Assembly (NCBI RefSeq): GCF_016865425.1
Contig: NZ_AP023355.1
Coordinates: 3,656,198 to 3,720,197 of the forward strand
Source of the DNA: Actinocatenispora thailandica
GTDB lineage: Bacteria; Actinomycetota; Actinomycetes; Mycobacteriales; Micromonosporaceae
DNA length: 64,000 nucleotides
Reading direction: 5' to 3'
The notes under the pieces are model-generated. The model was not told the origin of the DNA and made no database searches. It saw only the letters and a program-made list of their open reading frames with translations. The position numbers and the translations under genes were made by a program. This document shows positions 3,622-15,947 of this stretch, piece by piece; the first letter of the stretch is position 1; each line of letters begins with the position of its first letter.

Positions 3622-4845
3622 TCAGGCGTGCTCGTCGTAGTGCGGGTTGGCGGTGACGCCGACGCCGCGGTGGTCGTCCCAGTGGTACACGTCCCGACCA
3701 CCGACGAACACCCGCAGGGCGCGGCTGGTGACGTCCAGCGGGTCGCCGGACCACAGCACCACGTCGGCGTCGCGACCGGCGGCGAGCGTACCGACCCGGT
3801 CGTCGAGGCCGAGCATCCGCGCCGGGTTGGCGGTGATCGAGCGCAGCGCGGTGTCCCGGTCCAGGCCCTCCTTGACCGAGAGCGCGGCCTGGTAGATCAG
3901 GAAGTCGATCGGTACCACCGGGTGGTCGGTGATGATCGCGATCTCGACGCCGGCCCGGTCCAGGATGCCGGGGTTGCGCAGCGAGCGCTGCGCCACCTCG
4001 ACCTTCGACCGGTTGGTGAACAGCGGGCCGATCATCACCGGGATCTGCTTGTCCGCCAACAGATCGGCCAGCAGGTGCGCCTCGGTTCCGTGGTTGACCA
4101 CCAGCCGGTAGCCGAACTGCTCGGACAGCCGCACCGCGGTCGCGATGTCGTCGGCACGGTGGGTGTGCTGGCACCACGGGATCTCACCGGACAGCACCCG
4201 CGCGAGCGTCTCGTAGGTCGCGTCGCGGTCGAACGGCTTGCCCTCGTCGGCGGCGTGCGCGCGGGCCGCAACGTAGTCCTGGGTGCGCAGGAACGCGTCC
4301 CGGATGACGGCGGCCACGCCGAGCCGGGTGGACGGCAACTTCTTCTGCTCGCCGTACACCCGCTTCGGGTTCTCCCCCAGCGCGCTCTTCACGCTGGCCG
4401 GGTCGCGCACGATCATCTCGTCGACGGTGCGGCCCCAGGTCTTGATCGCCGCGGTCTGGCCGCCGATCGGATTCGCCGAGCCCGGCTTGACCACCACCGT
4501 GGTGATGCCGCCGGCCAGCGCGTCGGCCAGGCCGATGTCGGCCGGGTTGATGCCGTCCGAGGCGCGCAGCCGGGCACCGTTCGGGTCGGTCATCTCGTTG
4601 TAGTCGCGGCCCTCCCAGCCGATGCCCTCTTCACCGATGCCGGCGTGCACGTGCCCGTCGACGAACCCGGGCAGCACCCACTGACCCGTCGCGTCCACGG
4701 TGCGAGCCCCGGCCGGTACGGTCACCTCGCCGGCCGCCCCGACCGCGGTGATGCGCCCACCCTCGCAGAGCACGACGCCGTCGTCGATCGGCTCCGCCCC
4801 GACCGGCACGACCCGGCCGCCGGTGATCGCCAGCTGTTCCGCCAT
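3622..4845 (-). CDS. Amidohydrolase (imidazolonepropionase-like)
   Basis: A 407-residue metal-dependent amidohydrolase with a composite beta-sandwich and a TIM barrel. The first metal motif is FVDGHVHAG near residue 60. Later ligands are probably the histidines in CQHTHRADD and VNHGTEAH, and the catalytic aspartate is probably in IITDHPVVP. The C-terminal segment [17 protein letters not shown] is the typical end of this family. The start at 4845 has an AGGGAG ribosome binding site. Such enzymes hydrolyse cyclic amides, prolidase-type dipeptides or related C-N bonds in the cytoplasm; the substrate cannot be fixed. It is transcribed toward the small gene at 3363-3578 and is divergent from the HAD hydrolase at 4996. 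Confidence 0.87.
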
Positions 4846-13318: not shown

Positions 13319-13461
13319 CCCGACCCGGGTGGGGCGGTTCGCCCCACCCGGCACCCGTCGGGCGATCGGCACCGCCCGGTGTCCGTTTGCCGGTCCCACA
13401 GTGAGTCTTCTCGCCCCCGAGTACCGGCGGCAGTGATCATCGGCCCGATATCCTGGGGCCA

Positions 13462-13532
13462 TCGGCGGTGGGGCCCGCCGTCCGGCACCTGCCGGAAAAC
13501 CGCACCAACCGGTCGCCAACGGTCCCTACCAG
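13462..13532 (+). promoter_or_regulatory. Probable fluoride (crcB-type) riboswitch
   Basis: Features of the fluoride aptamer are visible upstream of the two FluC genes. P1 is GGCG/CGCC enclosing GTGGGGCC (13464-13479). A hairpin CCGGCA-cc-TGCCGG follows at 13482-13495. The 3' element GGTCCCTACCAG at 13521-13532 can pair with the loop: GGGGCC with GGTCCC is six pairs including one G-U, the pseudoknot expected of this class. TCCCT at 13523-13527 can instead pair with AGGGA at 13556-13560, the ribosome binding site of the first gene, so fluoride binding would free the site. The usual GAUG of the loop reads GGTG here, so I am not certain. Confidence 0.65.
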
Positions 13533-13568
13533 GTGCACGACACACCCGGTAGGCGAGGGAGCCCGCAG

Positions 13569-14150
13569 ATGACACACGGCCAGGGCGCCGCGATGGACGA
13601 GCACGCGTCGCCGCAGGAGCCCACCGGCAGCCACGAGCACCGCGCCGACGATCCGGCTCCGGGCGCGACCACCGATGCGGGGCGCCCGCCGGTGGCGACC
13701 GATCCGGACGTCGACCTGCACGTGCCGCAGCAGCGGCAGGAGCTTCGCCGGCACCCGGTGGTACTGCTGGGCACGATCGCCGCGGGCGGCGTGCTCGGCG
13801 CGTTCGGCCGCTACGGGCTGTCGGTGGCGATGCCGCACGGCCAGTCCGGCTTTCCCTGGTCGACGTTCCTGGCCAACGTCTCGGGGGCGTTCCTGATCGG
13901 GGTGCTGATGGTGCTGATCGCCGAAGTCCTGCCGGCGCACCCGCTGCTTCGGCCGTTTCTCGGGGTCGGCGTGCTCGGCGGCTACACCACCTTCTCGACG
14001 TCCATCGTGGACACCCGGCAGCTGGTGGTGGCGGGCACCGCCCGCACCGCCCTGCTCTACCTGCTCGCCACGCTGGTCTGTGCCGTGCTCGCGTCGCTGG
14101 CCGGGACACTGCTCGCCCGTACGCTGGCGGCGCGGGGAGGCCGGGCATGA
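13569..14150 (+). CDS. crcB: Fluoride channel subunit FluC/CrcB, first copy
   Basis: A 193-residue member of the Fluc family, which exports fluoride passively through dual-topology dimers. The first 62 residues are a hydrophilic Asp/His/Pro-rich extension not needed by typical 120-130 residue members. The channel core then has GGVLGAFGRYG, the pore asparagine in FLANVSGAFLIG, and the central sodium/phenylalanine-box region GVLGGYTTFSTS, across four membrane spans. The AGGGAG site lies 7 nt before ATG 13569 and may be masked by the riboswitch. The stop codon overlaps the next start in ATGA, so the two copies are translationally coupled and probably form a heterodimer, as reported for paired Fluc genes in Gram-positive bacteria. 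Confidence 0.9.
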   Translation: MTHGQGAAMDEHASPQEPTGSHEHRADDPAPGATTDAGRPPVATDPDVDLHVPQQRQELRRHPVVLLGTIAAGGVLGAFGRYGLSVAMPHGQSGFPWSTFLANVSGAFLIGVLMVLIAEVLPAHPLLRPFLGVGVLGGYTTFSTSIVDTRQLVVAGTARTALLYLLATLVCAVLASLAGTLLARTLAARGGRA

Positions 14151-14515
14151 CGCTGGTGCTGATCGCGATCGGCGCCGCCATCGGCGCGCCGGCACGCTAT
14201 CTGGTCGATCGGGCCGTGCAGTCCCGGCACGATTCGGTGTTCCCGTGGGGCACGTTCACCGTCAACGTGCTCGGCTCGTTCCTGCTCGGGTTCGTCGTCG
14301 GCGGCGCGGGCGTGATCTCCCCGGCACTGACCGCGCTGCTGGGCACCGGCCTGTGCGGTGCGCTCACCACGTACTCGACGTTCAGCTACGAGACGCTGCG
14401 GCTGCTGGGGACCGGCGGTCGCAGCCTGGCGGTGCTCAACGTGGTGGCCAGCCTGGCCGGTGGGCTCGGTGCCGCGTTCGCCGGCTTCGCCGTGGCCAGC
14501 GCGGTCTGGGGCTGA
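14147..14515 (+). CDS. crcB: Fluoride channel subunit FluC/CrcB, second copy
   Basis: A 122-residue Fluc-family protein of canonical length with four membrane spans. Motifs are IGAAIGAPARYLVDR, the pore asparagine in FTVNVLGSFLLGF, and GLCGALTTYSTFSYE. It starts within the stop codon of the first copy (ATGA overlap) and lacks the long hydrophilic extension. The two copies differ substantially in sequence, so they are diverged paralogues and not a recent duplication. The pair probably assembles as an antiparallel heterodimer in the membrane that lowers cytoplasmic fluoride. Control is expected through the upstream riboswitch candidate. Confidence 0.92.
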   Translation: MTLVLIAIGAAIGAPARYLVDRAVQSRHDSVFPWGTFTVNVLGSFLLGFVVGGAGVISPALTALLGTGLCGALTTYSTFSYETLRLLGTGGRSLAVLNVVASLAGGLGAAFAGFAVASAVWG

Positions 14516-14616: not shown

Positions 14617-15408
14617 TCAGTTGCCGTACGACGGGGAGTCGTCGACGGCGCCGAAGCTCTCCGAGTAGTCCTGCCCGCCGTGATCCGAGCCGTCGCCCGC
14701 ACCGTCGCCGGAACCGCTGGTGGAGTCCGAGCCGGACTGGTCGCCGGTGGAACCCGACGAGTCGGAGCCGCCCGAGGAGTCGCCGCCGTCCGAGCCACCG
14801 GCGCCCGGCACCGTGGTCAGGTCGGGGATCGACGCCGAGCCATCGCCGCCGCCGTGATCGCCACCCGAGGTGGACGAGTCGCTGCCGTCACCCGAGCCAC
14901 CCGACGTGGACGCGTCGCTACCGTCACCCGAGCCACCCGAGGTGGACGAGTCGCTACCGTCACCCGAGCCACCCGAGGTGGACGCGTCGCTACCGTCGCC
15001 CGAGCCGCCCGCCGGCGGCTGCGCGGACAGGCCGCCCGGCGTCGCCGCGGCGGAGCCGTCCCCACCGTCGTGCCCGGCGCCGCTGTCGTCGTGACCGGTG
15101 CCGCCACCGGAGCCGCCCCCGACGTACGAGTCGTCGTGGCTGAAGTCGACACCGCTGGCGGTGTCGTCCAGGTAGCCGTCGCCGTTCTCGTCGACCATCC
15201 GCTCGTCGAAGCTGCCGTCGTGGTTCTCGTCGTAGTCGGCGTACTCGACGATGCCGTCGTTGTTCTCGTCGTACGCGACGAAGTCGACCTGGCCGTCCCC
15301 GTTGGTGTCCGCCGTGTACTCGACGGAGCCGTCGCTCTCGTAGTGGGCGGTCACGTCATCGGCGTGGCCGTCACCGTCCGCGTCGATCCAGACGTCGCTG
15401 TCGCTCAT
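14617..15408 (-). CDS. Asp/Gly-rich protein with repeated calcium-loop motifs
   Basis: A 263-residue acidic protein with no signal peptide or membrane span. Residues 1 to about 85 contain a series of DxDxDG-like loops: DADGDGHAD, DTNGDGQVD, DENNDGIVE, DENHDGSFD and DENGDGYLD. The last four recur every 13 residues, with alternating hydrophobic residues between. These resemble EF-hand, dockerin or thrombospondin type 3 calcium loops. Residues 105-263 are low-complexity Gly/Ser/Asp, including a 12-residue repeat encoded by a 36-bp tandem repeat. ATG 15408 has AGGGGGAA upstream. The likely property is calcium binding or a flexible acidic linker; no function is known. It is transcribed toward the fluoride operon. 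Confidence 0.7.
   Translation of the reverse strand: MSDSDVWIDADGDGHADDVTAHYESDGSVEYTADTNGDGQVDFVAYDENNDGIVEYADYDENHDGSFDERMVDENGDGYLDDTASGVDFSHDDSYVGGGSGGGTGHDDSGAGHDGGDGSAAATPGGLSAQPPAGGSGDGSDASTSGGSGDGSDSSTSGGSGDGSDASTSGGSGDGSDSSTSGGDHGGGDGSASIPDLTTVPGAGGSDGGDSSGGSDSSGSTGDQSGSDSTSGSGDGAGDGSDHGGQDYSESFGAVDDSPSYGN
14863..15006 (-). repeat. 36-bp coding tandem repeat, four copies
   Basis: Four 36-bp units start at 14863, 14899, 14935 and 14971 inside the Asp/Gly-rich gene. On the coding strand each gives a 12-residue unit of the form GGSGDGSD followed by A or S, then STS. Units are almost identical, so copy number may vary between strains. Confidence 0.9.
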
Positions 15409-15710
15409 TCCGCTTCCCCCTAGACTCGGCCCCACCGGGGCCGTGCACCCCACCAGGCCAGTTGCATCACCTATGTTGGCGGCCGGTTCTCCGCCGCGCC
15501 GTGCACCACGATAAGTCCCGGCCTCCAGTGCCGCTCTCCCCGTTCCGTGCCAGCAAGCGATCGTCACGCACCGTGTCTGCGTGCTGGCGCTGTCCGTCAC
15601 GTTCCTGGCGGCCGATGTCCGGCGAATGCCGATGAATTCAGGGAAGCCGCGCGTGTCGACTGGGCGCGACGCATACTGATCGTGTATCGGACGAGCACGA
15701 GGGGTAAGCG
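15409..15710. other. Divergent intergenic region without a recognised gene
   Basis: This 302-bp gap separates the leftward Asp/Gly-rich gene from a small rightward gene. The stretch 15460-15480 is relatively A/T-rich and could hold the leftward promoter. A CATACT hexamer at 15672-15677 could be a -10 for the small gene, but no matching -35 is seen. I find no RNA structure or repeat. Confidence 0.5.
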
Positions 15711-15947
15711 ATGATGACGACGTCGCCAGACCTGAGGAGCGTCCTGTCTCGGGTGACCGACGCGGTGGAGAACCTTCCCTGCGGGGCCGAGCACTCCTGC
15801 TCCGCCCAGCTGCGGCGGGACCTGTTCGCGCTGCGCGAGCGGGTGAGCCGGGCCGGGCGGCCAACCGGCGACCTGCTCGCGGAGGCTGAGGGCCTCCTCG
15901 GCCGGATCAGCGAGTACCTGGCCGCCACCGGGCCGGCCGTGCACTGA
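15711..15947 (+). CDS. Small hypothetical helical protein
   Basis: A 78-residue protein with GAGGGG 6 nt before the ATG. The sequence is mostly amphipathic helix (LRSVLSRVTDAVENL and LRRDLFALRERVSR), with two cysteines in PCGAEHSCSA between helices and a short C-terminal helix GLLGRISEYLAAT. The Cys-x5-Cys pair could be a redox or metal site but is not a known motif. No signal peptide or membrane segment is present. I do not recognise a family. It is followed closely by the converging ngc transporter operon. Confidence 0.55.
   Translation: MMTTSPDLRSVLSRVTDAVENLPCGAEHSCSAQLRRDLFALRERVSRAGRPTGDLLAEAEGLLGRISEYLAATGPAVH

Follow-up and report, generated by a model that had tools for sequence, protein, structure and literature searches.

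The question raised by this locus is what the short leader in front of two fluoride exporter genes does, and whether its letters amount to a fluoride riboswitch. The window, a 64,000 nucleotide stretch of DNA from Actinocatenispora thailandica, carries on its forward strand a first FluC/CrcB gene of 193 aa (13569-14150; PF02537, E 5.2e-24) and a second of 122 aa (14147-14515; PF02537, E 6.5e-28) that overlaps the first by 4 nt. An open reading frame of 415 aa with C-terminal Gly/Ser/Asp-rich repeats lies on the opposite strand just downstream of the pair (14617-15864). The element in the leader, its conservation, its covariation and its gene links are established by computation. We hold with high confidence that 13463-13532 is a variant, actinobacterial fluoride riboswitch aptamer and that 13525-13561 is its translational expression platform.

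The probable aptamer in the window

All parts of the element are on the forward strand and are numbered here, where positions are named, as in the Thermotoga petrophila aptamer. The P1 stem-loop CGGCG-GT-GGGGCC-CGCCG (13463-13480) pairs CGGCG at 13463-13467 with CGCCG at 13476-13480; its loop opens with G13468 and T13469, which are positions 6 and 7, and continues with the 5' pseudoknot strand GGGGCC (13470-13475). An extra hairpin between P1 and P2 (13481-13496; TCCGGC 13481-13486 with GCCGGA 13491-13496) varies in length among relatives and is missing from many. The conserved joining strand CCGC ... GC and the short P2 occupy 13500-13516, with pairs G13502-C13516 and C13503-G13515 and an inner pairing of ACC (13504-13506) with GGT (13511-13513). 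There follow C38 A39 A40 C41 at 13517-13520, in place of the canonical U38 G39 A40 U41, and then the 3' pseudoknot strand GGTCCC (13521-13526) and U48 (13527). C13517 is proposed to pair with G13468, and U48 to be the linchpin partner of A40. The window has both A40 and U48, which the structural search rule described below demanded; locus L110 has G at position 40. Direct reading of the sequence bears out every aptamer letter and coordinate given in the earlier note, and with them the layout of P1, GGGGCC loop strand, hairpin and 3' GGTCCC that it had recognized.

A -10-like element, TATCCT, lies at 13449-13454 on the same strand. Of 204 elements, 166 have the motif TANNNT within the 39 nt that precede P1, as against 20.4 expected from shuffles, although scanning the window leader for the sigma-70 consensus gave no promoter. 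To judge from the position of this motif, transcription probably starts near 13461, just 5' of the aptamer, with which the leader would thus begin.

Folding of the single sequence gives the element no support, since the fold energy of 13455-13580 is no better than that of shuffles (z 0.43), and the minimum-energy fold of the free leader is without P1. A pairing with GGGGCC at 13455-13460 that appeared in single-sequence folding was set aside because that stretch is upstream of the probable transcription start.

Score against the known family

At the gathering threshold Rfam has no match anywhere in the window. Under relaxed settings RF01734, the crcB motif, matches 13455-13535 weakly (16.5 bits, E 0.032, gathering cut-off 34), with the whole model covered, and it is the best by E-value among three relaxed Rfam matches. 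Taken alone this score would leave the finding doubtful. The covariance search that the earlier note had proposed returned the expected family, but far below its cut-off; since four conserved nucleotides also differ, the site comes close to the lack of a model hit that the same note had named first among its grounds for abandoning a riboswitch. In the organism's own genome RF01734 finds 12 weak places, and the window site is not among them. A relaxed scan of 20 relatives' loci gave RF01734 in only three, at 16.5 to 18.4 bits, and in 18 named loci every variant pattern site stays below its gathering threshold; the five gathering-level Rfam matches in those 18 loci are four of RF01734 elsewhere in L214 and L216 and one of an unrelated family. 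Across 345 genomes of the class RF01734 exceeds its cut-off in 11.

Relatives of the element

A search with the first FluC protein found a match in 147 of 150 genomes of the window's family, and by a simple rule the same element precedes the gene in 20 of the 30 family loci returned. Nineteen of these 20 went into a covariance model, R1, L027 with an extra loop base being omitted. In the class R1 matches 67 of 345 genomes with E up to 0.01, and in the family 68 of 150 with E up to 0.1; chance matches occur at the low-scoring end of both lists, and below about 33 bits real and chance matches are mixed. When the collection of named genomes was scanned with a DNA pattern, at least 120 stretches matched; among the matches listed 120 of 120 are from Actinomycetota to go by their titles, including Streptomyces, Nocardioides, Micromonospora, Mycobacterium, Amycolatopsis, Actinomadura, Jiangella and Kribbella, although the pattern says little on other phyla because it was derived from actinobacterial copies.

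A structural rule that left positions 6, 7, 38, 39 and 41 free and required A40 and U48 gave 209 matches in fetched loci. Four (L028:1034-, L098:513-, L117:5100+ and L202:115-) were judged false by eye and removed, leaving 205 in actinobacterial loci. In a tally of 66 of the 67 R1-positive genomes together with G203, which entered through RF01734, 51 genomes carry the element by this rule, 50 of them with G6-C38; 16 class genomes have an R1 match and no element by the strict rule, and three of these (G379, G439 and G447) look real by eye. In a sample of 118 class genomes the variant element is present in 21 of the 100 that bear CrcB, whereas RF01734 rises above its cut-off in only 4.

The sub-threshold Rfam score, and a weak occlusion of the Shine-Dalgarno in the window genome that is described below, would also suit a decayed fluoride riboswitch whose function has been lost. 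Such a relic is very improbable, as the changed positions carry the same letters in many genera, within the Actinomycetota in all 120 matches listed.

Covariation of the helices

An alignment of 88 distinct rows was made from 92 matches in 85 loci that we chose. In it 98.2% of cells pair, against 90.2% when shuffled, and the covariation score is 0.185 against 0.092, a value that none of 500 shuffles reaches. P1, the extra hairpin and P2 were part of the model to which the rows were fitted, which biases the result towards these helices; the pseudoknot and the 6-38 pair were outside it. Compensating changes are found in P1, the pseudoknot and P2 (P3 in some papers), and indeed in each of the five helices counted, including the extra hairpin, whose five counted pairs have all changed in both strands among relatives. 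Such recurrence of the element, with compensating changes, makes the site more than a chance resemblance.

Primary conservation is nonetheless very high, two P1 pairs and one pseudoknot pair being invariant in the 88 rows, as might be expected of a protein-bound leader or a DNA operator whose conservation mimics an aptamer. The compensating changes in all five helices, and the fact that the matching family is RF01734, make that explanation highly improbable.

Positions 6, 38, 39 and 41

In the window A6, U38, G39 and U41 of the canonical aptamer are replaced by G, C, A and C. Two hallmarks of the family are thus absent: the A6-U38 reversed Watson-Crick pair, which with the Hoogsteen-type linchpin A40-U48 is described in the available text of PMC11586693 and PMC10687018, and U41. 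What was available of PMC11077080 reports position 41 as critical, the change U41A having made the Bacillus cereus switch unresponsive to ligand; that this position is C in the window counts against the aptamer reading.

The replacements go together among relatives. In 95 non-pattern elements, a set from searches biased to G6 (R1) or A6 (RF01734) and counted with kinship ignored, the 6-38 state is G-C in 79, A-U in 14, G-U in one and A-C in one; at position 39, 79 have A and 16 have G, and at position 41, 80 have C and 15 have U. Exceptions to the association number two for 6-38, four for 6-41 and five for 6-39. The 6-38 pair alone has a covariation score of 0.348 against 0.185 shuffled, but a slide control at +3, which pairs 6 with 41, is also high at 0.320, and two of five 6-38 measures are no higher than shuffles (321/500). 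Since position 6 also correlates with 41, shared descent explains part of the 6-38 signal. A 6-38 pair is favoured even so, because all nine elements with a mixed state at 39 or 41 (three G:CGAC, two G:CAAT, two A:TGAC and two A:TAAT) keep 6 and 38 matched, and because the pair is known from structure.

It is proposed that the tertiary pair A6-U38 becomes G6-C38 in the variant. This would be comparable to the tRNA pair at 15 and 48, in which G15-C48 and A15-U48 are interchangeable.

Two other observations concern these positions. Position 7 is A rather than U in five variant copies (L104, L107, L116, L117:2727+ and L117 14148-14198 on the reverse strand); the phosphate at position 7 holds Mg2+ in the crystal structure. 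In L214, from a Propionicimonas MAG, two elements stand back to back, at 4632-4690 (-) and 4739-4795 (+), before a dynamin-like GTPase gene and an enolase gene; one is A6-U38 with C41 and scores exactly at the Rfam cut-off, the other is G6-C38.

Gene partners and the likely ligand

The window element stands upstream of fluoride-resistance genes, as do most of its relatives: CrcB/FluC lies within 1200 nt of 168 of the 205 collected elements, and 95 of 109 G6-C38 elements among the matches listed from the pattern scan precede CrcB. Variant elements precede enolase in L192, L214, L262 and L272. In the congener locus L117 they precede a MutS_V protein and a NUDIX protein, the NUDIX gene being followed on the same strand by genes for enolase, an ABC protein and a dynamin-like GTPase. 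Further variant partners are a dynamin-like GTPase (L106), MFS (L108), PPE (L122, L243) and, in L196, a protein that matches MFS just below the Pfam cut-off. Elements with A6 precede MutS_V (L138, L140), NUDIX (L287, L293), NADHdh-family (L142), pyrophosphatase (L119), PPE (L137) and dynamin-like GTPase (L214) genes. MutS-like, NUDIX and PPE genes are thus found behind G6-C38 elements in some genomes and behind A6 elements in others. According to the available part of a review (PMC11139923), fluoride-riboswitch regulons include enolase, pyrophosphatase and formate hydrogenlyase. Because of these partners, enolase and pyrophosphatase among them, fluoride is likely the ligand of both the G6-C38 and the A6 types, and we infer that the window element binds it.

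It may be asked whether the four changes retune the pocket to another ion or to another range of fluoride. The positions near the ligand site have changed together, and there are riboswitch variants whose ligand has changed (PMC7266159, available in part); yet the partners are fluoride exporters and enolase, and MutS-like, NUDIX and PPE genes follow both aptamer types, so that retuning is rather unlikely.

Two loci groups may be recorded for their own sake. PPE genes stand behind both G6-C38 and A6-U38 elements (L122, L137 and L243, with L271 by sequence only), in Mycobacterium interjectum and M. bohemicum, to go by the record titles, and in two further genomes of the window's order; a link of PPE proteins to fluoride would come as a surprise. 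L117 (G070:C6:128000-145000), from the window's genus, contains three variant fluoride elements and a canonical one, four in all, in a cluster of genes for NADHdh-family, AAA_3/DUF58, DUF6062, enolase, ABC, dynamin-like, NUDIX and MutS-like proteins.

The ribosome-site helix

Downstream of the aptamer a hairpin at 13525-13553 (+) pairs CCTACC (13525-13530) with GGTAGG (13548-13553), with inner GGTG/CACC pairing, and shares C46, C47 and U48 with the aptamer. Directly 3' of it is the Shine-Dalgarno GAGGGAG of the first FluC gene (13555-13561, +). The hairpin has a predicted energy of -14.4 kcal/mol, the minimum for 13523-13561 being -16.6. The earlier note had made TCCCT (13523-13527) and AGGGA (13556-13560) the switching pair. 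That pairing is possible in the window and in the congener L010, but it is absent from L011 and L012 and is weaker, at -4.3 kcal/mol with an open loop and -14.1 with the best interior; it was rejected as the main switch helix because it is missing in two of three congeners and has the weaker energy. CCTACC-GGTAGG, which the same note placed and paired correctly and took as an addition, is instead the conserved ribosome-site helix. In some relatives, e.g. L118, TCCC pairs in register with this helix (GGTAGGGA).

Across the 205 elements the partners in this helix co-vary. The best helix including U48 has a mean length of 8.30 bp with each element's own sequence (n=205), against 6.61 when partners are swapped among elements (highest of 200 swaps 6.94) and 5.53 when shuffled (highest of 50, 5.71). 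Examples are CTACCAG/CTGGTAG, CTACTTGC/GCGAGTAG, CTGCAG/CTGCAG and, in L119, CCTGGTC/GACCAGG. In six of the 205 the helix is no longer than 4 bp and a credible partner is missing.

Among the 168 CrcB-linked elements, 133 have a Shine-Dalgarno-like motif at the start and 132 could be scored. In 124 of the 132, helix and motif share 2 nt or more; this is a raw count without chance expectation, and the partner of CCCTAC is already AGG-like on its own. The window helix itself stops 4 nt before the GGAG core, as it does in L010, and in L011 the distance to AGGAG is 7 nt; in L012, the fourth congener, the helix is part of GGTAGGAG. The masking of the ribosome site proposed earlier is seen as overlap in 124 of the 132 scored relatives and falls 4 nt short in the window. 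Since locking the aptamer raises the predicted opening of 13555-13561 from 0.52 to just 0.63, occlusion of the Shine-Dalgarno in the window is likely partial or steric.

No terminator-like site was found in 13330-13640. Transcriptional fluoride switches, in which the pseudoknot sequence overlaps the terminator base (PMC11077080, available in part), show the same competition as the window, and the hairpin could on that analogy be a terminator stem acting through intrinsic or Rho-dependent termination. The missing terminator, the entry of the hairpin into the purine-rich ribosome site in 124 of the 132 scored cases, and the near absence of transcriptional fluoride switches from Actinomycetota in the available text of PMC13273304 make control mainly of transcription decidedly unlikely.

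A translational ON switch of the two-gene FluC operon, the earlier note's central proposal, remains the best reading given the relatives, the covariation and the gene links; as with ligand binding, we infer the direction of control. Without fluoride, C46, C47, U48 and the next nucleotides would form the hairpin with GGTAGG and hinder ribosome loading. With fluoride, the pseudoknot of 13470-13475 with 13521-13526 and the A40-U48 pair would hold that strand, so that the hairpin could not form and both FluC exporters would be made.

Relation to known fluoride riboswitches

The variant shares with RF01734 the P1 with its pseudoknot loop, the AACCGC joining strand, the short P2, A40 and U48, and the place before crcB and enolase genes. 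It differs in having G6, C38, A39 and C41 for A6, U38, G39 and U41, in scoring below the gathering threshold, in a G-U pair at pseudoknot 11-44 in 81 of 95 copies, and in an extra hairpin that may follow P1. Like the switches of Pseudomonas syringae and Burkholderia pseudomallei, which served as translational controls in PMC13273304 (available in part), it would act without an intrinsic terminator; this likeness is one of type of control, and the helix between aptamer 3' strand and ribosome site was worked out in actinobacteria. As in the transcriptional switches of B. cereus and T. petrophila, a downstream platform competes for the strand that holds the pseudoknot end, but their competitor is a terminator stem, by the available text of PMC11077080, and that of the window is the ribosome-site region.

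The available portion of PMC13273304 draws its sequences from RF01734, names P1, the pseudoknot and P3 as covarying regions, and gives nearly no transcriptional fluoride variants for Actinomycetota, which agrees with the earlier note's view that there are few descriptions of translational fluoride switches from actinobacteria. No description of the variant was found in the openly licensed literature searched.

The variant is a source of natural covariation at a tertiary pair that crystal and probing studies have established, and it offers directly testable swaps at 6/38, 39 and 41. It appears, on a balance clearly in favour, to be a separate subclass that is widespread in Actinobacteria, has G6-C38 for A6-U38 with changes at 39 and 41, and exerts translational control of FluC, enolase and DNA- or nucleotide-care genes, with a pocket that may suit another fluoride range. 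About 15% of Flucs are under riboswitches according to the part of the review available (PMC11139923); as the variant falls below the Rfam threshold in the loci tested, the riboswitch-controlled share of FluC would be underestimated. A second curated model would correct the annotation in Streptomyces, Micromonospora, Nocardioides and others.
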